From Deltaproteobacteria bacterium (GTDB lineage Bacteria; Bdellovibrionota_B; Oligoflexia; Oligoflexales; CAIYRB01), in NCBI GenBank assembly GCA_016874735.1, contig VGTI01000041.1, forward strand, positions 1 through 32,946: a stretch of DNA of 32,946 nt. The letters run 5' to 3'. This document shows, piece by piece, positions 14,977 through 31,800 of this stretch. The notes below the pieces were generated by a model. That model made no database searches. It was not told the origin of the DNA and saw only the letters and a list, made by a program, of their open reading frames with translations. Numbering within the stretch: position 1 is the first letter of the stretch; the number at the start of each line of letters is the position of its first letter. Both the position numbers and the translations under genes were made by a program.

Positions 14977-15172
14977 CGTTCAAAATTGGGATGTTGAATA
15001 CTGCTGGCTTAGTGACGCAAACTACTAAGATAGCGTCATCAAAATGTAGTTTTTATGCATCTATCAACCTCTTGACGGAGGTTCGACCGATTTGAAGGCG
15101 CCGTGCAATCTCTGATTGGCTTACTCCTCGTTTATGAAGAGTCTTAACCTTATCGGCATGCATACCGGCTGT
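14977..15172 (-). repeat. Direct repeat, left copy
   Basis: This 196-bp segment aligns without gaps to 32,751-32,946. The 69 bp outside the recombinase gene differ at 8 positions, while the last 127 bp (15,046-15,172) are identical. It contains the 3' end of the recombinase gene and a candidate crossover site. The true repeat may be longer, because the right copy is cut by the window edge. Confidence 0.92.
15013..15038. other. Candidate recombination (res-like) site, left
   Basis: TGACGC-N14-GCGTCA forms a 26-bp dyad just downstream of the recombinase stop codon. The right copy at 32,787-32,812 keeps both arms and the spacing but differs at two central positions. Conserved arms with a central crossover region are what small serine recombinases bind. 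Assignment as the crossover site is inference. Confidence 0.45.
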
Positions 15173-18265: not shown

Positions 18266-18652
18266 TTGGAGTGTGAAACACCCTTGGCCCTCAAAGATCC
18301 CAAAGTAGTGAGCGATTTAAAGAGCCTCAGTGTAGCCGCCTTCCGCGCCACGAAGCTTCTGCCAAAGCACATGCGACCAAAGATCGGCGGAAGGGTAGAG
18401 GATCACTGCCTAGATGCTTGGCTACTAGGCCGGCAGTTTGCCCTGACTACGAAAGAGCTAAAACCAGGCAATAGCCAGCTACTTCAAGAGGCGCTAGGCC
18501 ATCTGGACAGTGTTGGCTGTCTATTCGAGCTGTGTCTTGAGCTTAGAGCTATCAGTGATGGCCAGTTTGGCGAAATCATCGCGCTGACAGAGGCCATCCA
18601 AAAACAACTCCACGGACTTCTCAAGACCTATGCCGTATCACCTAAATCATGA
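18266..18652 (+). CDS. avd: DGR accessory variability determinant, Avd-like
   Basis: The 128-residue product is nearly all helical and contains RATKLLPKHMRPKIGGRVED, LLQEALGHLDSVGCLFELCL and ELRAISDGQFGEIIALTEAI, then QKQLHGLLKTY. This matches Avd and related S23-like four-helix-bundle proteins, which form a basic pentamer that binds the RT and is needed for cDNA synthesis. Length is typical of Avd. The only start that keeps all helices is TTG at 18266, without a clear ribosome site; this may keep expression low. Its last 23 bases overlap the RT start, so the two are translationally coupled. Identification rests on helix pattern plus position. Confidence 0.82.
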   Translation: MECETPLALKDPKVVSDLKSLSVAAFRATKLLPKHMRPKIGGRVEDHCLDAWLLGRQFALTTKELKPGNSQLLQEALGHLDSVGCLFELCLELRAISDGQFGEIIALTEAIQKQLHGLLKTYAVSPKS

Positions 18653-19652
18653 TCTCCTCGGTCAGGTCTCTAACCTTGGCAACGTGACGCGAGCCTTTCG
18701 TGCCTGCGCTCGCGGTAAAAGGGGGTCTCGCGGCTATCAGCTGATGCAGATGCAGTTGGCTCGTGAGCTGGTTGCCATGAGTCACCAGTTGGCCAGCGGT
18801 GATTGGCCTTGGCAAGCCTACAATAGCTTCGTCGTGTGTGACCCTAAACGGCGGACCATTTACGCGGCACCCTTTAGGGACCGAGTCGTCCACCACGCGA
18901 TCCACCAAGTGATTGCACCGCTGATCGAGCCACTTATCCCGCCCAACTCGTGGGCTTGCCGCAAGACGATGGGTAGCCGCAACGCCGTCAGTGCACTGAC
19001 GGCGACTTTAAAAAAGCTGGGTAACGAGCGCTATACGGTCAAACTCGATGTCGCCAACTACTTTGCCTCGATCAGTCACGAGGTCCTTGGCCAGATGCTC
19101 CGCCGTGTGATGCCGGATCCCTCTCTTGATATCCTGCTCGCGTCACTGCTCAGCTCGCACCCGGAGTATGCTAGGTGCCGCCGTGGCATTCCCCTTGGCA
19201 ACCTAACGTCTCAGCTCTTTGCTAACTTTTACCTAAGCCCAGTCGATCATCTCGCCGCGAGACACGAGGGTGACGTCTTTTACATCCGTTACATGGATGA
19301 CATGGTTTTAGTGGGCGCGAGTAAAAAGACTGTGCTCGATCTAAAAGACCAAATCGTCGCCCTTTGCCAGCGGGAGCTCAGGCTCAAGATTCCTGTCCGT
19401 AAGACGGTGCATCTGGCGTCGGATCCCGTGCCCTTTCTTGGCTTCGTTCTTTATGGCACGGGCTACCACGTCCTTGCGCGGACGAAGAGGCGGCATCGAC
19501 GCAAAGTTAATAAGCTCACGAAGGCGGGCAAGAGAGCGAGCGAGATTGCTGCCGTGGTCGAGTCGTTCGCGGCGTTTGCTAACCTGGACGACGCCTTGCG
19601 CATGGTTTCGAACTCGACTACTGTCACGAGCGGTGGACGGCCTAAGGCGTGA
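18630..19652 (+). CDS. DGR reverse transcriptase
   Basis: This 340-residue RT has no maturase, RNase H or endonuclease domain, as usual for DGR enzymes. Motifs in order: RTIYAAPFRDRVVHHAI (75-91), TVKLDVANYFASISH (136-150, catalytic Asp140), GIPLGNLTSQLFANFYLS (186-203), FYIRYMDDMVLVG (217-229, Asp223-Asp224), LRLKIPVRKT (250-259) and VPFLGFVLYG (267-276). The SQ in LGNLTSQ replaces the SP of group II intron RTs and is a known DGR signature linked to selective infidelity at adenines. It overlaps avd by 23 bp and its stop is 10 bp before the TR. The enzyme would copy TR RNA into mutagenised cDNA together with Avd. Confidence 0.96.
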   Translation: MPYHLNHDLLGQVSNLGNVTRAFRACARGKRGSRGYQLMQMQLARELVAMSHQLASGDWPWQAYNSFVVCDPKRRTIYAAPFRDRVVHHAIHQVIAPLIEPLIPPNSWACRKTMGSRNAVSALTATLKKLGNERYTVKLDVANYFASISHEVLGQMLRRVMPDPSLDILLASLLSSHPEYARCRRGIPLGNLTSQLFANFYLSPVDHLAARHEGDVFYIRYMDDMVLVGASKKTVLDLKDQIVALCQRELRLKIPVRKTVHLASDPVPFLGFVLYGTGYHVLARTKRRHRRKVNKLTKAGKRASEIAAVVESFAAFANLDDALRMVSNSTTVTSGGRPKA

Positions 19653-19662
19653 GCAGCGTAGG

Positions 19663-19781
19663 ACGCGCTGCTTCGGGGGGCGAATTGGAACAATGGCTCG
19701 AACGCCGGTCTGTTCGCCGTCAATCTGAACAATGCGCCGACCAACACGAACACGAACATCGGGTTCCGCTGCGCGCTGCAG
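19663..19781 (+). repeat. DGR template repeat (TR)
   Basis: The 119-bp TR has 26 adenines. Aligned to the VR it differs at 15 positions, all TR adenines (6-8 each to G or C, fewer to T); the 93 non-A positions are identical. Read in the VR frame it encodes ALLRGANWNNGSNAGLFAVN and LNNAPTNTNTNIGFRCALQ, with ten AAY codons and no stop. It begins 10 bp after the RT stop, so it is transcribed with the RT. The last 25 bp (19,757-19,781) are unmutated and equal to the VR end: the IMH* segment. Identity to the VR stops at 19,662 on the left and 19,782 on the right. Confidence 0.97.
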
Positions 19782-19801
19782 ACTTGATCGACCATGCAAG
19801 A

Positions 19802-19836: not shown

Positions 19837-20493
19837 TCAAGGCACCCGGCCGCTCACCTGGGCTGACCCACCGCTTTTGCGGTGGGGGTCCGAACCCCGC
19901 CCGTCAAGCTTGCGCATGAGCGAGCCAAAGGCCGGCAATACGTCGCGCTCAAGAAACTGGGCCGCCTTCTGGTGCCTTTGGTAAAGGGGAGCATCTGCCG
20001 CCAACACACCGATGATGCTGCCAATGGCGGCCCTAGCCTTATCGTAGTTAAGACGCTTTGCCGCACCAAATCCGTAGTAGCCGGCACCGAGGTGAGAAAG
20101 CACGTCGCGGCACCGGGCGTCAACAAAAGCGGCGAGGTCGGGTGTTTCATCGGCAAAGTTGAGCTGATCGCGGGCCGCTAGGAAAAGACGGTAGCAGGCT
20201 AGGTTGTGTATGGCTGCTGTCGCTAGGGATCCTGCCTTTGACTGAGTCGCCTTAGATGGAGGTGAAGGCGGCTCGCTAGTGCTGACGGGTGCCGCCACTC
20301 CTGCTGCCTCTTTCGTCAACTTGGCGTGAAAGCTCATGAGCGAAGCGCGGTCGACGTACCAGCAGTTGGCCACTTTGACGGCGCGGATCGCTTTGAGCTT
20401 GATGTACTTGCGGACGGTCTTTTCTGACATATGAAGGAGGCTCGCCGCCTCGTCTAGGCCAATCTCCGCGGGTGCTTCTTTGCGCTGGGCCAT
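19837..20493 (-). CDS. HTH plus helical-domain protein, candidate DGR accessory
   Basis: The 218-residue product starts at an ATG with AGAGG about 8 bases before it. Residues 10-58 (IGLDEAASLLHMSEKTVRKY, then IKLKAIRAVKVANCWYVDR) are an excisionase/MerR-type winged HTH. A Pro/Ser linker (60-88) leads to an all-helical domain of about 105 residues (IHNLACYRLFLAARDQL, DLAAFVDARCRDVLSHL, KARAAIGSIIGVLAADAP, AAQFLERDVLPAFGSLM). That helical domain is reminiscent of a bundle like Avd, but I cannot show homology. The gene lies between TR and VR on the target's strand, its 3' end 55 bp from the TR. Possible roles are regulator of the DGR or target recognition. An 8-bp-stem hairpin (19,867-19,886) lies inside its 3' end. 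Confidence 0.72.
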   Translation of the reverse strand: MAQRKEAPAEIGLDEAASLLHMSEKTVRKYIKLKAIRAVKVANCWYVDRASLMSFHAKLTKEAAGVAAPVSTSEPPSPPSKATQSKAGSLATAAIHNLACYRLFLAARDQLNFADETPDLAAFVDARCRDVLSHLGAGYYGFGAAKRLNYDKARAAIGSIIGVLAADAPLYQRHQKAAQFLERDVLPAFGSLMRKLDGRGSDPHRKSGGSAQVSGRVP

Positions 20494-21130
20494 CGTGGAT
20501 CCTCTTTCTTTGTATCGTTGCCGTCAGGTGTAGGCGTCGACGAGGTCGTCGATTATGCACGAGCAAGGCAGCCTTCGGGTAGGGAGAAGTGGAAAGCCTT
20601 CCGGAAGTTCCGGAACTTCAGCCGGCAAAAAAGCCAATGATTTACTAATAAACCGCCTTCCGTTTGTTTATAGAAAACTGCAAAAGGATTCATCAGCACC
20701 CATTTTAAAGTGATTAATACCGGATGCTTAAAGAGAACCGGAAAGGCGCAAAATGTTACCGCTCGGACTTTCCACTTCTCCCCCGCCCCTTTCCGGAAGT
20801 TCCGGAAGGGTGCCTAAAAAAGGCCTAAAATACAGAAAAATTAGTAAGAAGTTACCCATAGAAATCGAGTGGTTGTTAGAAAGTTCCGGAACTTCCGGAA
20901 CGTTCCGGTTGGTCCAAGCCCTTCCGGAAGCCCTGAAGTTCCGAAATGGGACGATTTTGCAGGCACCTAAAATCTTGGAGGCTAGTTAAAAAATAGGCAA
21001 ACCAAGTAAAATTAGATGTTTAAGAAAAACGACCCTAGTCCAGACACCGAGAAGTGGAAAGGAGAAGTGGAAAGGCATCCGGAACTTCCGGAACCACCCT
21101 TTCCGGAACTTCCGGAACTTCCGGAAGGCC
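20494..21130. repeat. TTCCGGAA palindrome array in a gene-free stretch
   Basis: No gene is supported here. The stretch holds eleven copies of the palindrome TTCCGGAA (starts 20599, 20608, 20791, 20800, 20884, 20893, 20922, 21086, 21101, 21110, 21119) plus half copies. Neighbours are often exactly 9 bp apart, in pairs or a triplet. GAGAAGTGGAAAG occurs three times (about 20,584, 21,048, 21,061) and once inverted (about 20,764), always beside the palindromes. A 78-codon frame at 20,753-20,989 is built of these repeats and is not believed. The array lies between the HTH gene's promoter and the VR hairpin and may bind a DGR or plasmid protein. Confidence 0.8.
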
Positions 21131-21164
21131 AAAAAAATTTCCGCCCAGCTGTCGCTGGGCGGAA
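21131..21164 (-). terminator. Hairpin downstream of the VR, also a terminator
   Basis: On the minus strand TTCCGCCCAGC-GACA-GCTGGGCGGAA forms a perfect 11-bp stem, followed by ATTTTTTT. It starts 54 bp after the end of the VR. It is a textbook terminator for the target gene. The GACA loop also fits the GRNA tetraloop described for hairpins that follow the IMH in phage DGRs and help target recognition, so it may do both jobs. Confidence 0.85.
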
Positions 21165-21212: not shown

Positions 21213-24200
21213 CTAAGGCTGCAGCGCGCAGCGGAACCCGATGCCCGTGTGCGTGTAGGTCGGCGCAGAGGCCAGACCGACGGCGAACAGACCGGCGACC
21301 GAGCCATGGTGCCAATCCGCCCCCCGAAGCAGCGCGTTCCCTGCAGCCGTGCAGCCATAGTATTGACCCGCACCGTTCGCGGATGTGAGCGCGCCGCTGG
21401 GGCCTGCGACCTTCTTCTCCCAGTCTGTGACATTGGCGTTATCCCACTGGACCCAGCCAGTGTTGTACCAATTAACACTCGTGCACTGCATATCGGTCCA
21501 CTCCCAGACGTTACCGGAGAGGTCCCAGATCACGTTGCCGTTACTCAGGACGTGGGTGCGCATTTGCGAGTTGTTGGCCGCCCCTGCAGAATAACCAGTG
21601 GTTGCATAGGACTGACCGGTGCCTGAGTAAATGTTGGTGTCTGTCCTAAGTGAGCAGGAAGCATTAGCTGCGTCCGCTAAAGACGCGGTGAGCGTGCAGT
21701 TAGTTACAGCCCCTTCGGTAGTAGCAGCAAGAGCATTAGCTGGGACGTTGTCAGTGTGTCCTGTCGCCAGTTGGATCCCAGCCGTCGAGTTGATATCGTT
21801 AATGGCCGTGGCCTCAATGTTGCGCGCCATCGTCATCCACTCGCCCTCAGTCACAAGATGGGCGCCGACACGCTGGCAGACGTCTTTGGCCTCGTACCAG
21901 CTGATACTGACAAATGGTGTACCGGAAGCGGTTGAGACTGGAAGGCCCGTGGTGCTGTCTTTTTTGGCCTCGTACTTCATGACGCAAAAGTCTTTAAAGC
22001 TAAACCTGTCATCTTTTGGGACTAACACATAGCCGGTGGGACAGGTCCCAGATCCTGAACCGGCGGTGGCATTAATCGTGATCGCGCCAGCCGTATTGTC
22101 GATGGTGACACCGGTGCCTGCCGTGAGAGTTGAAAGAGTGAAACCAGTGCCGTTACCGATGAGTAGTTGGCCGTTCGCTGCGCTCGATCCATCGACACCA
22201 ATGCCGCCTCTAGCTGCACTGAGAGTACCAGAGCTGATCAACGCAGCACTATGTGGCGGGAGATCCGAGGCTTCAAGGGTGAGACCTTCGATGGCGCGGC
22301 CTTTCGCGTCGATTCTAAGTTTGGCGTAGGTACCTGCCACAATGCCGGTAGTTGATAGTGATGCTGTCGCAGATCCAGGCCCTGAGGCGGCGACATCACC
22401 GGTGAGTGCCGTCAGGTAGCTGCCTGCAGCCTGTTTACTGTTAAACGTGGTCCAGTCGGTGGCCGTTAGGTAGCCGTCGGTAGAGGTGGAAGACTGCGGA
22501 ATTTTATTTGCCGGTAGTGCCGGGATTTCTGAGGCTGAGATTGCGGCGACAGTGACAGTGCCACCGTTTGACGTTTGTTTTAGAAACTGACCAGCCCCGC
22601 CCGTGCTAGCTAGATTTGCACCAGTGCCGCCGTTTGCAACTCCAAGAGTGCCGTTCACAGCATTAGTGGAGGCAAGATTCACGGTGCCGAACGTAGGTTG
22701 GTTGCTCGCATTCACCGTTAGGATATTGTACTGACTGCCTGCGGCCGTCGATGAGAGAGCTGAGCTGGACCCGATCACTACACCGTTATTGGTGAAAGCA
22801 CCGACGCCGGTACCGCCGTTGGCTATGGCCAGGGTGCCGGTCGTCAGGCTAGTGGCACTGATGGGTGGAAGATCACCGGGCTCAAGAGTCGCGCCGCTGA
22901 TGACGCGGCCTTTAGAGTCGGTGGTCACTTTAGTATAGTTGCCAGCAGTGCCCACAGCCGCAAGAGTGGGGTCTGGGAAGTTACCAGTGAGATCACCGCC
23001 CGCTGCACCTGTAGGCGCGACACCAGAGACCCAGTTGAGGGTCCCAGTACCGTTGGTTGAGAGCACTTGGCCAGCTGAGCCGTTAGTACCGGGTAGCTCC
23101 CACGTGAGCTGCGACGAAAGCGTATCGGGAGCTTTAAAGGCGACGAAGTTAGTGTTGGCTTTGTCGTTTAAGACGAGCTTGCTAGCGTTTGTACTGTCGC
23201 CTCTGACGGTGACGTCCCCATTAGATGTCACTGTCGAGGCTGTGAGAGCTCCAGTAGCCGCTGTGCCGGTCGTATTGATGGTGGTGGAGCCACCGATACT
23301 TGATGCTCCGTTGATCGTGGCGCCAGTTATAGTTTTGTTGGTCAGTGTTTCTGGGGCATCACGCGTCACGACTACGCCTGAAGCCGGAAACGTGGCTGTA
23401 GAAATGACACCGGTACCACCGTTACTCCTATCCAAGATCCCGCCGACCGAAGCTGCCTTAGAAAGGTCAATAGCACCAAAGGAAGGCTGACCCCCAGCGC
23501 TCGGCACGCGCAGAACCTGGTCAGCGCTCGGTGAGGCCGTCGCCACCAGATTACCGGTGCCGTTACCTAAAAGGACGCCGTTTAGGTTGAAGTTTGTGCT
23601 ACCAGTACCACCTACGGCGACGGCTAGTTGCCCACTCGTAATCTTCGCTGCATTTAACTCTGGGATATCAGCTGCAGCTAAGGCGGTACTGCTTATGACC
23701 TGACCCTGGGCGTTTGTGATGACTTTGGCGTAAGTGCCAGCCGTACCGATATTGGCAAGACTCACGGTCACAGTTCCACTAGCAGGCGAGGCCGCGATGC
23801 CAGTGCCTGCACTAACGCTACTTACTTTATTTGAAAACGATGTGTAATCGGCGTTGGAAATTAGCCCTGCACTGACACCTGCTCCTGCCGAAGCCAGCGG
23901 GATATTGAGTGTATGGACACTGCCCACCGGTGTAAACGCTAGGCTGCTCCCATTGGTGGTGGTAGCAAAACTCTGCTCGCCAGCCGTGACCCCGCCTAGG
24001 CTCGTGACGCCTACGCCAGCTATGCCAAGCGCCTTGACGGCAGAGCCGTCCCAGTATTTGATTTGACCAGAGTTCTCGTTAAACCAGGTTTTGCCTTTGT
24101 CGTTAGTTGTGAGTCCAGTCGGATCCGCTGTGTGTGCGCTAAGGCCTAGGGTCTTAGACGCAGCCATCTCAATACTGCCGGCATTGGCAAGGGCGTTAGC

Positions 24201-26078
24201 GTTCATGTCGATTGCGCCAGTCATGGTGTCGCCACCTTTGTTTAGCGGCGTGTAGCCAAGGGCGTTTTGTTTGGCGTTAAAAGTTGTCCAGTCCGTAGCT
24301 GTCAGATAGCCATCGGTTGAGGTGGTAGCCTGCGGTATTTTATTTGCCGGTAGTGCCGGGATTTCTGAGGCTGAGATAGCGGCGACAGTAACGGTGCCAC
24401 CGTTTGACGTCTGTTTTAGAAACTGTCCTACGCCACCTGTGGCGCTAAGGTCTACTCCCGTACCACCGCTTGCAAGTGGGAGGACACCACTCACGGCAGA
24501 CGGGCTAGCGATGTTTAGAGCGCCAAATGACGGCACACCACCAGTCGTTGGTACCCGCAAGATCTGGTCGGCGCTGCCCGCTGCGGTGGTGAGTAGATTT
24601 CCTGCGTCGTTTCCAAGCACAACACCGTTCGCTGTGAAGTTCGTTGCTCCGGTGCCACCATTGGCGACTCCGAGAGTGCTGGATACCTCCGTTGCAAGGT
24701 TGATGTTGCCGCCACTGGCGGCTTCAGTAATCCGACCTTGTGCATCAACCGTAATCGTAGCGCGTGCGTAAGTGTTTGGGGTCACTCCGGTGGTGGAGAG
24801 ACTGATGGTCCCACTGCTCGTGATCGGGCCGCCGGTAAGCCCAGTCCCCGTAGCCACACTGGTAACAGAGCCGCCACTGGCGAGCTTGGTGTAGGCGCTG
24901 CCATTCTCCGAGACCTTAAATTCGTTTGTACTTTGATCGAAATAAATGCGGCCATGTCCGCTGCTACTCAGCGCTGGGGCTGTGGTTGCTGGGAGTGATA
25001 ACTGCGCAAGAGATAATTCACCAGTCACCGTATCGCCAGCTTTATTGAGCGGTGTGTAACCAAGTGAGGCGGTGATATCAGCGCTAGCGATTGTCCCTAC
25101 CGTGACGATACCGCCAGAGGTCGTTTGTTTGAGGTAGTGCCCTGCGCCACCAGTAGCACTGAGATCGGCACCGGTACCTCCGTTGGCGCGCGCAAGTACA
25201 CCCGTCACAGCAGCAGGCGAGCCCAAATTGACGCGACCAAACTCAGGACCACTGGCGCCCACTACAAGGACGTTATTTTGTACGCCGGGAGCTGTGGCCG
25301 AAATCGGTCCAGCGCCAGCTCCGACCAAGACGCCGTTATTCGTAAAACTTGTAGCTCCGGTCCCGCCACCCAGCACTGCGAGCGCGCCTGAACTAGTGCC
25401 GCTACTCGTGAGCGTTTGCGGCACCCACTCTGTGCCGCTATAGGTCAGCACCTGGCCTGGTTGCGGCGCGGTACTCGAAACCGTTTGTCCCTGGATGCTG
25501 CTGGCTGTTGCCGCGGCGGGAGTGCCCCAGACGAGCTCCCCACCAGCGTTCTTGGTGAGAAACTGGTTCGTAGCTGGAAGGGATTTTAGAGCTAGACCCA
25601 GAGTTCCGTCGCTACCGAAAGAGAGCGTCTTACCGTCTACCGGTACGCGCAACGCAAGAGGCACGTAGCTATACTTCTGACGTGGATAAGTTTTGCCGCC
25701 TGCGGTGATCTCAATAAAAACTGGCTCAGAGCCGTCACCAAATACGGCCTCGACCTGAGAAGGCATGAGATTGATATTAAGACTTATGACGCCGTTAGTG
25801 GGAAATACCCCTGTGTAAGGGTAGTTCTGGCCTAGTTGAGTGCCACCCGCTTCAGCAGTGTAAAACCTCACATCGATGTCGAGAGGCCCATCTATAGGTG
25901 ACCCGTTAGCATTCGTCAGTCGTGCCGAGTAGACGAGTGGGTAGTAAGAAGCAGCTGCCACGGACTCACGGGTAAAAAGTAAACCTAACACCAGCAAGGC
26001 AACTTCAAGACCGTTGCATCGCCGATGTAGTAGTCCTTGTTTTCCCTTTGCTCTGCCCATGGTTCCTGGCCCTGCCAC
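21213..26078 (-). CDS. DGR target: giant exported repeat protein with FGE/C-type-lectin-like tip
   Basis: The 1,621-residue protein starts at GTG 26,078; an ATG six codons later (26,060) is an equally good start. A basic stretch and hydrophobic core (LEVALLVLGLLFTRESVAAA) form a signal peptide. Residues about 45-160 (YPLVYSARLTNANGSPIDG, DIDVRFYT) are a beta domain seen in surface proteins of predatory and Oligoflexia-type bacteria. Residues 160-1340 hold many fibre-like repeats (LGVANGGTGA, NNGVVIG, YLTATDWTTFN, LGYTPLNKGGDT). Residues 1346-1616 form an FGE-sulfatase/C-lectin-type domain (CPTGYVLVPK, GAHLVTEGEW, DLSGNVWEW, GIGFRCALQ). The VR covers 1581-1620, with variable residues 1588, 1590, 1591, 1594, 1601, 1603, 1604, 1608, 1610 and 1612. 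It is probably a cell-surface fibre with a hypervariable binding tip. Confidence 0.93.
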   Translation of the reverse strand: MAGPGTMGRAKGKQGLLHRRCNGLEVALLVLGLLFTRESVAAASYYPLVYSARLTNANGSPIDGPLDIDVRFYTAEAGGTQLGQNYPYTGVFPTNGVISLNINLMPSQVEAVFGDGSEPVFIEITAGGKTYPRQKYSYVPLALRVPVDGKTLSFGSDGTLGLALKSLPATNQFLTKNAGGELVWGTPAAATASSIQGQTVSSTAPQPGQVLTYSGTEWVPQTLTSSGTSSGALAVLGGGTGATSFTNNGVLVGAGAGPISATAPGVQNNVLVVGASGPEFGRVNLGSPAAVTGVLARANGGTGADLSATGGAGHYLKQTTSGGIVTVGTIASADITASLGYTPLNKAGDTVTGELSLAQLSLPATTAPALSSSGHGRIYFDQSTNEFKVSENGSAYTKLASGGSVTSVATGTGLTGGPITSSGTISLSTTGVTPNTYARATITVDAQGRITEAASGGNINLATEVSSTLGVANGGTGATNFTANGVVLGNDAGNLLTTAAGSADQILRVPTTGGVPSFGALNIASPSAVSGVLPLASGGTGVDLSATGGVGQFLKQTSNGGTVTVAAISASEIPALPANKIPQATTSTDGYLTATDWTTFNAKQNALGYTPLNKGGDTMTGAIDMNANALANAGSIEMAASKTLGLSAHTADPTGLTTNDKGKTWFNENSGQIKYWDGSAVKALGIAGVGVTSLGGVTAGEQSFATTTNGSSLAFTPVGSVHTLNIPLASAGAGVSAGLISNADYTSFSNKVSSVSAGTGIAASPASGTVTVSLANIGTAGTYAKVITNAQGQVISSTALAAADIPELNAAKITSGQLAVAVGGTGSTNFNLNGVLLGNGTGNLVATASPSADQVLRVPSAGGQPSFGAIDLSKAASVGGILDRSNGGTGVISTATFPASGVVVTRDAPETLTNKTITGATINGASSIGGSTTINTTGTAATGALTASTVTSNGDVTVRGDSTNASKLVLNDKANTNFVAFKAPDTLSSQLTWELPGTNGSAGQVLSTNGTGTLNWVSGVAPTGAAGGDLTGNFPDPTLAAVGTAGNYTKVTTDSKGRVISGATLEPGDLPPISATSLTTGTLAIANGGTGVGAFTNNGVVIGSSSALSSTAAGSQYNILTVNASNQPTFGTVNLASTNAVNGTLGVANGGTGANLASTGGAGQFLKQTSNGGTVTVAAISASEIPALPANKIPQSSTSTDGYLTATDWTTFNSKQAAGSYLTALTGDVAASGPGSATASLSTTGIVAGTYAKLRIDAKGRAIEGLTLEASDLPPHSAALISSGTLSAARGGIGVDGSSAANGQLLIGNGTGFTLSTLTAGTGVTIDNTAGAITINATAGSGSGTCPTGYVLVPKDDRFSFKDFCVMKYEAKKDSTTGLPVSTASGTPFVSISWYEAKDVCQRVGAHLVTEGEWMTMARNIEATAINDINSTAGIQLATGHTDNVPANALAATTEGAVTNCTLTASLADAANASCSLRTDTNIYSGTGQSYATTGYSAGAANNSQMRTHVLSNGNVIWDLSGNVWEWTDMQCTSVNWYNTGWVQWDNANVTDWEKKVAGPSGALTSANGAGQYYGCTAAGNALLRGADWHHGSVAGLFAVGLASAPTYTHTGIGFRCALQP
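21219..21337 (-). repeat. DGR variable repeat (VR)
   Basis: The 119-bp VR ends two codons before the stop of the target gene. Relative to the TR the ten Asn (AAY) codons now read Asp, His, His, Val, Gly, Ala, Ser, Tyr, His and Gly. No change is seen outside template adenines. The unmutated 25 bp at its 3' end (21,219-21,243) are the expected initiation-of-mutagenic-homing (IMH) site. The first base after it differs (C in place of TR A). Confidence 0.97.
22440..24460 (-). repeat. Internal DNA repeats within the target gene
   Basis: Segments of about 120 bp around 22,467-22,590 and 24,310-24,425 are nearly identical and encode the same KIPQ...STSTDGYLTATDW and TVTVAAISASEIPALPANKI units. Weaker copies of the NGGTG unit recur along the gene. 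Such DNA-level identity points to recent duplication and would allow length change by recombination. Confidence 0.75.
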
Positions 26079-26506
26079 ATCGTAGACATCAGTTCTGTGT
26101 GGCTAAGTTAGGTTATCGGAACCGAAGGGTGAAACTTGAGGTTTAAAAATTGAGCACTTATAGGGTCAAAGTTACGTGAAGTTAGGACCTAGTGTCAGGT
26201 TTTTTTACACCACGCATCTTACGCACGGTGACCCTGGAAACTTGGAGTCCTGCTCCTTGGAAACCCTGTGGCTTTAAAAGCCCCTTCCAATGCCTTTTCC
26301 CTTCGCTTCGCTACGCCTTCGTCCGTCCCTGATGGGACGGCCTCAGTTGCTTTAGTGATTTCTACACACCCTATGCACCTAAAGTGCTGGGGGCGCATCG
26401 CTAGTGGATGCAAGTTGCCGTGATGATGGTCGTTATACGTATACCTACGTATACGATCGTGACACGTACAAGATTCTAATCTTACGGAATCAATGACTTC
26501 TTTCGG

Positions 26507-29481: not shown

Positions 29482-30603
29482 TTACTTCCAAGCCTCCGTG
29501 TGATCGCTACTAGCCTCCCCAAACGAAGTATCTTCCTGAGGCTGCTGGTCTTTCTCGTCGAACAAAGTGCGAAAATAGGCATGCCGCTTTTCAAACTCTT
29601 CTGGCGCCGGCCAGCATCCGTTTTGTCGCATTCGCTTCATAAGCAGCGCCAAGGGTTCGTGAATCGTTTTGCCGCTCGACGTGTGGCGTAGCTCGAAATC
29701 AAAGTGCACTAGCGAACGCTGCACGACGTCAAAGGGGATCCCTAAGCTGCGCAACTGGAGAACTTGTGATTTGCCAAACCCGATGTCGGTCAGCATCGAG
29801 TAGTCCAAGTCCGCGGGTGACCATTCATCTTCTATGCGCGCGCGCGTTTCGGCAGTAGTAGTAGTTAAGAAATTAGTATTTATATAACTACTACTACTAG
29901 GGGGATTTGGCTCCGATCCTGGCTCCGATCCTGGCTCCGAATTGGCTCTGTTTTGGCTCCGAATTGGCTCCGATCCGGCTCTGATTTTGCTCACTGTGAG
30001 GTCCCGGTACACCGGCTCGGGGAGTAAATATCGAGTCCAGCCGCCCGGCCCTTTTTTAAACTGGTATCGGGAAACCCAGCCACTCTCTTCTAGTCTCTGC
30101 AAAGCCTTCTTAACCGCGCTGGGAGTGCTTTTCACTGCTGTTGCCAAATCGCCGCTGAAGATTTTTTCGCTCACGCGGCTTCCAGAAAATCGGCACGAGT
30201 CGTACACGAAATCGAGGCAGCGACTTTGAAGGCGCGACAGGTCTGCCAGCCCAAATTTTGGCTCCGATCCTGGCTCCGAATTGGCTCTGTTTTGGCTCCG
30301 AATTGGCTCTGATCCGGCTCCGATCCTGGCTCCGAATTCGGATGTTGGATCACCCACAGCGGCCTCGTTTTGGCTCCGAATTGGCTCTGTTTTGGCTCCG
30401 ATTAGGGGCACTTTTGGCTCCGAATTGGCTCTGTTTTGGCTCCGAATTGGCTCTGTTTTGGCTCCGAATTTATCTGACGTAGTATTTGCCGCCGAAGTTT
30501 CGTGGTCTTCCCAAGGCATTGTTAGAGTTTTCTTGGGTAACTCCTTATTCGATTTGGCAATAATTGTTCGCTTCAACCTCTTGTCGTTAAGAGAGAGTGC
30601 CAT
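29482..30603 (-). CDS. Candidate plasmid replication initiator with internal iterons
   Basis: The ATG at 30,603 follows GGGAGGTGAT, an excellent ribosome site, 3 bp after the parA stop; the two form an operon. The 373-residue product has a basic N-terminus, a low-complexity part (45-118) built on SEPIRSQNRAN units, a winged-helix domain (119-200: LSRLQSRCLDFVYDS, VKSTPSAVKKALQRLEESGW, RYLLPEPVYRDL), a second SEPIRSQNRAN part (207-232), a Ser/Thr stretch and a C-terminal helical domain (YSMLTDIGFGKSQVLQLRS). The repeats come from iteron-like DNA. No exact Rep family is recognised. Its role follows from winged helix, iterons and parA; a regulator of parA is the alternative. Confidence 0.62.
   Translation of the reverse strand: MALSLNDKRLKRTIIAKSNKELPKKTLTMPWEDHETSAANTTSDKFGAKTEPIRSQNRANSEPKVPLIGAKTEPIRSQNEAAVGDPTSEFGARIGAGSEPIRSQNRANSEPGSEPKFGLADLSRLQSRCLDFVYDSCRFSGSRVSEKIFSGDLATAVKSTPSAVKKALQRLEESGWVSRYQFKKGPGGWTRYLLPEPVYRDLTVSKIRAGSEPIRSQNRANSEPGSEPGSEPNPPSSSSYINTNFLTTTTAETRARIEDEWSPADLDYSMLTDIGFGKSQVLQLRSLGIPFDVVQRSLVHFDFELRHTSSGKTIHEPLALLMKRMRQNGCWPAPEEFEKRHAYFRTLFDEKDQQPQEDTSFGEASSDHTEAWK
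29854..29898. other. AT-rich stem-loop beside the iterons
   Basis: AGTAGTAGTAGTTA (29,854-29,867) and its exact reverse complement (29,885-29,898) flank a 17-base loop that is almost all A/T. It lies 10 bp from the first iteron cluster, inside the rep candidate gene. An alternating GCGCGCGCGC run lies just left (29,836-29,846). It is a candidate DNA-unwinding element of an origin. Confidence 0.6.
29909..30470. repeat. Iteron-like repeats within the rep gene (candidate origin)
   Basis: Twenty-two copies of GGCTC begin units close to GGCTCCGAATT or GGCTCTGTTTT. Seven lie at 29,909-29,987 and fifteen at 30,260-30,470; spacing is 11 bp in most cases and 12 in a few, so the repeats face one side of the helix. 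The two alternating types make a 22-bp period, and three units (33 bp) give the 11-residue period SEPIRSQNRAN in the protein. The clusters flank the winged-helix coding segment. Iteron plasmids and phage lambda O show comparable initiator-bound repeats, in lambda also inside the gene. Confidence 0.75.
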
Positions 30604-30606
30604 TCA

Positions 30607-31704
30607 TCACCTCCCTAAAGATCGAGCTTCGGGCGCCCGTTTCTTTTTCGAGGTGACACGATTATGAGCTTCATTAATTGACTGCTGCTTTGCAGCGTCG
30701 TTCAATCGAGCCCACACCTCTAGGATCACTTCACGCATTTCATCAGCGACAATACTTGTTGGACAGTATTCGGGTAGAGAGAGGTGCGATGCGATAGCCT
30801 CTTCACCATGAACCGACTCTCTTATCGCTCCGCCAGTGCAGCCTGGCACGTGTGCCAAATACCAGGAGCGTATTTCGGCACTGAGCTTCCTTGTGGACGT
30901 GAACTTAGTTGGTACGAAGATATGCGCAAAATTACGCCCAGTATCCCTCTTGAAATTATCGAGGTAGGCCTTGAAGGCCTGATAGTTACGAAAGTTGTTT
31001 ATACGACATTCGAGCGGAGAGATAAGAGCATCACAGGCCATCAGAGCATTAGAAATCAGTAAGTTCCAGTTTGGCGAGCAGTCGAGGATGACAAGATCGT
31101 AGCGAGCCCTGAGGGGTTTGATAACTTTATCTCTAAGCCAGAAATCACGCATATTTCGACTAGAGATTTCTCGTTCCAAAGCTACAAGTTCAGGCGTCTC
31201 TGGAATGAAATCTAGCGTTGGAATGTCCGATTTGATGATTATGTCATCGAGAGTAACTTTACCTTGTGCAAAGTCGGACAGACCATACACGGATCCGATC
31301 TTTTCAAGAGCTGAGTCTAGGTTGTCTGATTCATCAAGATCGACTTGGTAGCCCAGTGCGTTTGTAACATCACACTGCATATCTAGACCAATAATGCACA
31401 CCTTCTGATTATGAAGGGCTGCCAATCTACCAAGATTTAGCGCCAAAGTACTTTTAAGAACGCCGCCTTTTGTCGTGAATACAGCAACTACCATTGAGCC
31501 GCTAAGAGGTTTCATGAATCCGTAGCGCTCGCCAATAAGTGGCAAGTCGGCAATAGTCCAATTTCGACGAGGGTTACTTTTACCTCCCTCTCTTGAGGCT
31601 GCTGGAATCAAGCCAGTATTTTCAGCCTTGATGACAGCTTGTCGGGATACGTCGGCACCGAAGATTTTAAGTACCTTTTGAATCGTATACTTATTGGATT
31701 CCAT
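30607..31704 (-). CDS. parA: ParA-type partition ATPase with N-terminal HTH
   Basis: The ATG at 31,704 has GAGG 6 bases upstream and gives 365 residues; the frame is open to 31,737 without a ribosome site. Residues 1-70 (KYTIQKVLKIFGADVSRQAV, RNWTIADLPLIGERYGF) form a MerR-like HTH as in plasmid ParA proteins that repress their own operon. The ATPase domain has deviant Walker A TTKGGVLKST with its signature Lys, Walker A' LDMQCDVTNALG and Walker B YDLVILDCSPNW. It would segregate the element's DNA. No parB is seen; the downstream rep candidate or an unlinked gene may supply the partner. Confidence 0.9.
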   Translation of the reverse strand: MESNKYTIQKVLKIFGADVSRQAVIKAENTGLIPAASREGGKSNPRRNWTIADLPLIGERYGFMKPLSGSMVVAVFTTKGGVLKSTLALNLGRLAALHNQKVCIIGLDMQCDVTNALGYQVDLDESDNLDSALEKIGSVYGLSDFAQGKVTLDDIIIKSDIPTLDFIPETPELVALEREISSRNMRDFWLRDKVIKPLRARYDLVILDCSPNWNLLISNALMACDALISPLECRINNFRNYQAFKAYLDNFKRDTGRNFAHIFVPTKFTSTRKLSAEIRSWYLAHVPGCTGGAIRESVHGEEAIASHLSLPEYCPTSIVADEMREVILEVWARLNDAAKQQSINEAHNRVTSKKKRAPEARSLGR

Positions 31705-31800
31705 AAACGGCCTCATCAAAAAAGTTCCAGCGCACATCGTTTACATTGATGCTAAATAGTATCATAAAAAAGTCAACCAGCAACTGACGACTCATGTTAC
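31705..31800 (-). promoter_or_regulatory. parA-rep promoter region
   Basis: On the minus strand TTGCTG and TACTAT are separated by 16 bases (about 31,752-31,780), a reasonable sigma-70 promoter some 50 bp before the parA start. The stretch is AT-rich and may hold the ParA operator. The hexamers are not perfect. Confidence 0.35.

Follow-up and report, generated by a model that had tools for sequence, protein, structure and literature searches.

The systems closest to the locus described here are proteins diversified by diversity-generating retroelements (DGRs) and a family of fibres carried by a predatory bacterium. Mtd of Bordetella phage is a virion protein, and bacterial DGRs of the TvpA type have lipoproteins as their targets. 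TaqVP and TvpA are single-domain monomers, and the variable residues of TaqVP are solvent exposed according to the paper that describes it (PMC6328139). A 2024 paper presents the mosaic adhesive trimers (MATs) of Bdellovibrio bacteriovorus as a repertoire of fibres with tips that have been swapped over evolution. According to that paper (PMC10769870), the family was shown on the predator surface, HD100 has 21 MATs, and one member binds a glycan. In MATs, a conserved, beta-rich domain some 130 aa long comes directly after the signal peptide, many members end in S74, and the MAT Bd2740 carries a C-type-lectin tip and trimerises like Mtd. The reference list of PMC10769870 includes a DGR paper. 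Among the papers listed by literature searches outside bioRxiv and most subscription journals, none on a DGR in the Bdellovibrio group was seen; the parts are known, and the combination of a MAT-type fibre with a DGR appears new among the papers searched.

The window analyzed here is a stretch of 32,946 nucleotides and corresponds to one contig (C41) of a 4.65-Mb assembly in 166 contigs. We consider it highly probable that one of its genes encodes a MAT-type surface fibre whose lectin tip is rewritten by a DGR. This gene is read from the minus strand, has a GTG start, and encodes 1,621 aa; the plus-strand reading of the same interval is riddled with stops. An earlier, sequence-only reading had assigned a 1,621-residue protein to this ORF, with a signal peptide, an N-terminal domain, a repeat stalk, and an FGE/lectin tip ending in the VR (variable region). 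The ORF was borne out, on the minus strand, and each of these parts could be located. The features of the locus are:

21213-26078, minus strand: DGR target, most likely a MAT-type exported fibre of 1,621 aa; GTG start, with an in-frame ATG six codons on
25950-26078, minus strand: signal-peptide-like N-terminus, residues 1 to about 43 (sequence reading; a hydrophobic leader is found in paralogues too)
25512-25958, minus strand: MAT-type N-terminal domain, the presumed cell-proximal anchor (profile A1, hhalign)
22059-25511, minus strand: fibre stalk with GGTG-type repeats, about 1,150 residues, possibly a trimeric beta fibre (from sequence)
21216-22043, minus strand: predicted FGE-type C-type-lectin tip, residues 1346-1621 (AF2 model, Z scores, profile match to PDB 5vf4)
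21215-21337, minus strand: VR, the last ~40 codons of the target; variable residues 1588, 1590, 1591, 1594, 1601, 1603, 1604, 1608, 1610, and 1612
21139-21164, minus strand: hairpin with an 11-bp stem and a GACA loop, ~50 bp past the VR and ahead of a T run; either a candidate DGR target-site cruciform or simply a terminator
19837-20493, minus strand: HTH_17/excisionase-like gene, kept beside Avd in relatives (HTH_17 E 5.4e-08)
19663-19785, plus strand: core of the template repeat (TR), located by alignment to the VR; it starts 10 nt past the RT stop
18630-19652, plus strand: DGR reverse transcriptase, RT (RVT_1 E 3.7e-22; phrog_1423 E 7.9e-77; tree)
18266-18652, plus strand: Avd-like accessory protein (phrog_3206 'Avd protein of DGR', E 2.1e-06)

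By eye, the leader has a basic n-region, a VALLVLGLLF core, and an AxA-type end. The stalk holds eight xGGTG motifs and one GGIG. What had been read as a surface-type N-terminal domain can now be identified as a homologue of the N-domain of MAT-like fibres of Bdellovibrionaceae. Profile A1, which represents this domain, has 47 matches in the genome of the window and was also found in all five same-genus genomes, with 6 to 36 matches each. Elsewhere, it was matched 32 times in genome G010, four times in G041, and once in G026, with zero matches in the other 37 of the 46 genomes searched. A Bacteriovoracaceae genome (UBA6200, G060) has 17 strong matches, many of them in a single cluster; none of the 12 genomes of a family that includes a Silvanigrella record (f12) was matched, and two of the eight genomes behind DGR loci were.

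The link to MATs runs through genomes of Bdellovibrionaceae, not through HD100 sequences, and starts from weak single-genome E-values: a joint profile, A6, matched 13 of the 61 genomes in the family of a Bdellovibrionaceae MAG, weakly though consistently (E 1e-6 to 9e-4). Eleven of the 21 matches were retrieved, and the longest ORF of each opens with a leader followed by the N-domain, as judged by reading. Three of these ORFs were queried against the PDB, and each matched fibre chains of the B. bacteriovorus type. The first matched 8oml, 8on4, 8ol4, and 8ojn, plus a phage long tail fibre (6f45), the second 8okw, and the third 8ond ('bd2133'), 8oml, 8on4, and 8ol4. We take the PDB entries titled 'Cell wall surface anchor family protein' to be MATs as well, based on their numbering beside 8ond and on PMC10769870. 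Profile A7 was made from the N-domains of 10 of the 11 retrieved ORFs; in hhalign, A1 and A6 scored 96.3% and 98.2% against it, and an unrelated control (A1 vs A5) scored 0.3%. S74 and the N-domain share an ORF for two of six S74 matches in the genome of the window (C24, C64) and for seven of eight in the Bacteriovoracaceae genome, two matches being assigned to one ORF when both their contig and their ORF had the same length.

PDB searches with the full target, the N-domain profile (best E 0.25, unrelated), the stalk profile, and one MAT-like protein of the Bacteriovoracaceae genome returned no MAT entry. For the stalk profile, the best matches were the tail fibre chains 6cl5/6cl6 (E 0.011 and 0.017), with no solved MAT beta-helix among them. 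The published capping-loop motif of MATs, sought as a regular expression, is absent from the target and likewise from five of five MAT-like controls. The target resembles the MAT superfamily in its signal peptide, conserved N-domain, long fibre, and exchangeable C-terminal tip, and in that S74-ended paralogues occur beside others. It differs in having an FGE-type tip that appears to be rewritten by a DGR, and its stalk repeats are unlike the solved MAT helices. The N-domain family is also larger here, with 47 matches in one genome compared to 21 MATs in HD100. Taken together, these sequence comparisons make a MAT-superfamily fibre the most likely identity of the target.

Several other ORFs carry the same domain. 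In the genome of the window, giant ORFs with a leader, this N-domain, and GGTG-type repeats lie on C18 (15,097 aa, open at the contig start), C20 (13984-51453, 12,490 aa), and C34 (17632-31734, 4,701 aa), and a giant N-domain ORF of 9,481 aa is found in the related genome G005. If expressed, these would be very long fibres. Moreover, the first 219 codons of the target, together with about 160 bp upstream (window 25422-26239), are duplicated at another contig end of the same genome (C57, 18371-19027) with 93% DNA identity, and N-terminal modules may therefore be shuffled.

The tip was modelled with AF2 from an alignment of 43 tips taken from DGR loci and paralogues (43 of 65 matches, excluding one long match and those that were shorter or incomplete). 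The model has a pLDDT of 83.8 and a pTM of 0.88, and its fold is that of an FGE-type C-type lectin; a model from 8 aligned tips only reached a pLDDT of 34.8. In structural comparison (Foldseek, VIA-align), the closest match of the tip was TaqVP (2.7 A over 215 residues, Z 19.1), followed by Mtd at Z 14.6 and TvpA at Z 13.3; FGE enzymes scored lower or about the same (Z about 12-13). At the sequence level, the tip profile matched TaqVP (5vf4) with E 5e-50 and TvpA with E 0.0019, and Pfam FGE-sulfatase matched the target tip, whose end is the VR, with E 9.7e-07. The VR aligns gap-free to TaqVP. Eight of the ten variable residues pair with variable residues of TaqVP, H1590 and A1603 are without a variable counterpart, and Trp1589 pairs with the invariant Trp349. 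The sequence-only reading had named structure prediction of residues 1346-1621 as a check, and the outcome favors it: a C-type-lectin fold is predicted, and the variable residues are predicted to be exposed by homology to TaqVP, to whose exposed ones eight of the ten align.

The target thus shares with TaqVP, Mtd, and TvpA an FGE-type C-type-lectin fold, a VR at the extreme C-terminus, and variable positions coded by AAY; none of those three proteins sits on a MAT-type fibre. Formylglycine-generating enzyme is alike in fold and differs in its catalytic residues. Ser333 and Cys336 of hFGE superimpose on D348 and N351 of TaqVP (PMC6328139), and the equivalent positions of the target are D1588 and H1591, which are both variable and neither Ser nor Cys. 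FGE enzyme activity was rejected on this ground. More FGE-type lectin tips are encoded elsewhere in the same genome, namely on C39 (847-aa ORF, L066; at least two in tandem) and C14 (795-aa ORF, L067). No matching TR was found for them in this genome, and they are possibly fixed relics of earlier DGR targets.

The TR and the VR are mutually inverted and are 87% identical across 123 nt. All 16 core mismatches fall at TR adenines, which make up 27 of the 123 bases (chance about 3e-11). Five further mismatches lie just upstream, three of them not at A, indicating that the core ends there. The earlier count of ten variable residues was exact, since the TR contains ten AAY codons and all ten are altered in the VR, which has no stop and no non-A mismatch in its core. 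The TR adenines of codons 1607, 1609, 1611, and 1613 (Thr, Ile) and 1620 (Gln) are all intact in the VR; together with the lack of a stop, this looks like scaffold selection. The theoretical protein diversity of the VR is about 2e15 variants. When the assembly was searched with the TR, the target VR was its sole partner (next best match E 0.17). The RT reading frame is uninterrupted and encodes a YMDD motif. A second reverse transcriptase is encoded in the same genome, at 12597-13262 of C50 (RVT_1 E 4e-45, 482-aa frame).

In the sister loci of genomes G005 (L060) and G002 (L059), the target, HTH gene, Avd, RT, and TR follow in that order on a single strand, whereas in the window the Avd-RT-TR block is flipped relative to the HTH gene and the target. 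In phage BPP-1, it makes no difference which way the target is oriented (PMC3240598), and the inverted arrangement therefore need not harm function. A scan of other DGR loci for TR/VR pairs found a pair in 8 of the 16 loci of one set and 5 of the 8 of another. The HTH gene matches neighbors of Avd-RT in three relatives (E 2e-31, 1e-25, and 5e-17) and, by reading, accompanies Avd-RT on phage contigs too; it is a possible accessory or regulator of the DGR. Many short CCGGAA-type repeats lie between the HTH gene and the target (window 20560-21130), and like tracts occur past the VR in some relatives. The hairpin is the only one in the window with a GRNA loop and a stem of at least 9, and a counterpart was not found at L059 or L060. 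Published DGR hairpins are GC-rich, with a consensus stem of 7-10 bp and a GRNA loop, and lie 4-34 bp from the VR (PMC3240598). The hairpin of the window is farther off, at ~50 bp, with a T run after it, and is a candidate for either a DGR target-site cruciform or a plain terminator.

A close relative of the cassette was found on six IMG/VR contigs, where a 1,090-aa target with a leader, N-domain (A1 E 3e-46), stalk, and tip is followed by HTH, Avd, RT, and then TR on those contigs that reach that far. In two of three contig pairs, the copies from different samples showed no difference in the stretches compared. Contigs L350 and L351, which also come from different samples, have 14 differences in 13,572 aligned bases, 12 of them among the 114 positions of the VR (12 of 12 at TR adenines) and 2 among 13,458 elsewhere (Fisher p 6e-24). 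The VR was thus rewritten while the rest stood still. Comparison of G002 with G005 is less sharp and points in the same direction, with 13 differences in 112 positions of the VR (12 at TR A), 1 in 112 of the TR, and 66 in 2,491 of the stretch between them. VR diversification occurs in nature in this phage-borne relative of the cassette. The DGR of the window, whose own cassette is represented by one strain, is probably active as well. L350 encodes a portal (E 3e-97), a gpA terminase (E 1e-236), an integrase (E 3e-32), and a GH108 endolysin (E 1e-48), which identifies it as a temperate phage. In L350, the cassette lies between the integrase and endolysin genes, is read from the other strand, and has an antitoxin-like gene in its vicinity; cargo genes are commonly found in such a position.

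In a tree of 32 RTs picked from the loci, 16 RTs from the Bdellovibrionota side and two phage RTs form one clade (support 100/100), and the RTs of L150 and L065 fall outside it. The phage RTs adjoin those of G002, G003, and G005 (98/92), and the RT of the window pairs with that of an Oligoflexaceae MAG (98/90), not with its own genus. The cassette has probably moved between lineages, to judge from these placements, and related whole cassettes were found both on chromosomes and on temperate-phage contigs. Of 80 genome-contig and 80 viral loci, three (L110, L267, and L268) were found to have an ORF that carries the N-domain, and the pairing of a DGR with a MAT is therefore not the rule in the RT clade. 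Other DGR targets of this clade are lipoprotein-like and have different stalks (L116, L119, L122, and L063). DGRs with lipoprotein targets (TvpA type; L116, L119, and L122) also have an exported, surface-type target with a C-type-lectin tip; they differ from the target of the window in their lipoprotein-like N-termini and other stalks.

Left of 15 kb, the window contains chromosomal-type genes, such as those for a tyrosinase, an ABC-F-like ATPase, a topoisomerase, and an S49 peptidase; the last matches a phage head-protease family, yet is of host type by Pfam. The part that runs from a resolvase at 15,053 to the end of the contig contains ParA and Rep-like genes together with iteron-like repeats, and the locus may therefore sit in an integrated plasmid-like element. 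The Rep-like and ParA genes lie at 29482-31737, with 11-bp iteron-like repeats within the Rep-like ORF (29920-30490); a nucleotide search of this part against plasmids gave no match. No virion gene was found among the scanned ORFs of the 33-kb window. The earlier statement that no phage genes are nearby holds to this extent, but it needs qualifying, since ParA, Rep-like, resolvase, and excisionase-like HTH genes flank the locus and related cassettes are carried on temperate-phage contigs. To judge from neighboring records, the group belongs with lake and sediment relatives of Oligoflexaceae and Silvanigrella, and PMC12865303 names Oligoflexales and a predator of algae.

These surroundings raise the question of whether the protein is a receptor-binding fibre of a phage or prophage remnant, diversified for host range like Mtd of Bordetella phage and left in a mobile element. 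Intact relatives of the whole cassette on contigs with portal, gpA terminase, integrase, and GH108 endolysin genes would fit such an origin, as would weak stalk matches to tail fibres (phrog_31660, E 1.8e-4; phrog_7389, E 1.5e-3) and the excisionase-like HTH and ParA genes that flank the locus. However, the window protein has a leader, which the phage-borne target keeps and which is needless for virion fibres. Likewise, the N-domain, so frequent in this genome, gave no match when 50,697 phage records were searched by tblastn with a single sequence, the scanned window ORFs include no virion gene, the ORFs flanking the G005 cassette are housekeeping-like by reading, and on phage contigs the cassette has integrase and endolysin genes on either side and runs on the other strand. 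We regard this origin as improbable, and a tail fibre was rejected as the main reading on account of the signal peptide and the lack of virion genes among the window ORFs scanned. That the target is not a phage tail protein, as the sequence-only reading had held, fits an architecture of signal peptide and an N-domain matched 47 times genome-wide.

It is very improbable that the VR is a dead relic with an inactive RT and old variation. A single TR/VR pair in one assembly and an Avd-RT-TR block inverted relative to the target, unlike in G002 and G005, could be taken that way, but target orientation makes no difference in BPP-1 (PMC3240598), and a relic was rejected as the main reading given the intact RT ORF with its YMDD, ten changed AAY codons with adenine-only core changes and no stop, and VR turnover in phage-borne relatives. 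A DGR-diversified exported adhesin that serves functions other than prey recognition, such as particle or algal attachment, kin recognition, or phage decoy or defence, is a serious possibility, though short of probable. The relatives are lake and sediment MAGs, and DGR targets of the same RT clade have unrelated anchors (L116, L119, L122, and L063). Against this stands the MAT homology, which points to a family of predator fibres with published glycan binding for one member (PMC10769870). Based on the MAT-family homology of the N-domain, prey or surface recognition is the best reading of the function of the target.

In the preferred reading, a MAT-type surface fibre with a lectin tip rewritten by a DGR, the fibre would be exported via its signal peptide and anchored to the cell through its conserved N-domain, and the long repetitive stalk, presumably trimeric, would extend it, with the C-type-lectin tip at its end. 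With Avd and RT, the TR would be copied to cDNA with adenine mutagenesis, overwriting the last ~40 codons of the target. The cells of one clone would then display tips with binding faces that differ at the ten AAY positions. We infer surface display and trimerisation of the target, and a ligand on prey, host, or substrate surfaces. A cell-surface stalk with a hypervariable site, possibly for prey, host, or surface recognition, had been proposed earlier, and both the tip fold and the MAT homology support it.

The locus bears on the question of how bacteria that live as predators or epibionts keep up with prey receptors that constantly change. Whereas MAT tips are swapped over evolution, the binding face is proposed here to be rewritten within a clone, and in a closely related cassette, population data show that the VR has been rewritten. 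This raises a testable question, namely whether tip rewriting alters what the cell binds or eats. In addition, temperate phages of the Bdellovibrio-related group are linked to cell-surface adhesins. A bolder idea, which we regard as speculative and rather unlikely, is that the DGR-plus-fibre cassettes of Bdellovibrionota form a mobile prey-recognition system exchanged by temperate phages and chromosomes, in which a lysogen would gain a self-diversifying adhesin and predator clones would search receptor space somatically. If true, mobile DGR-fibre cassettes would give bacteria an equivalent of an adaptive repertoire for recognition.
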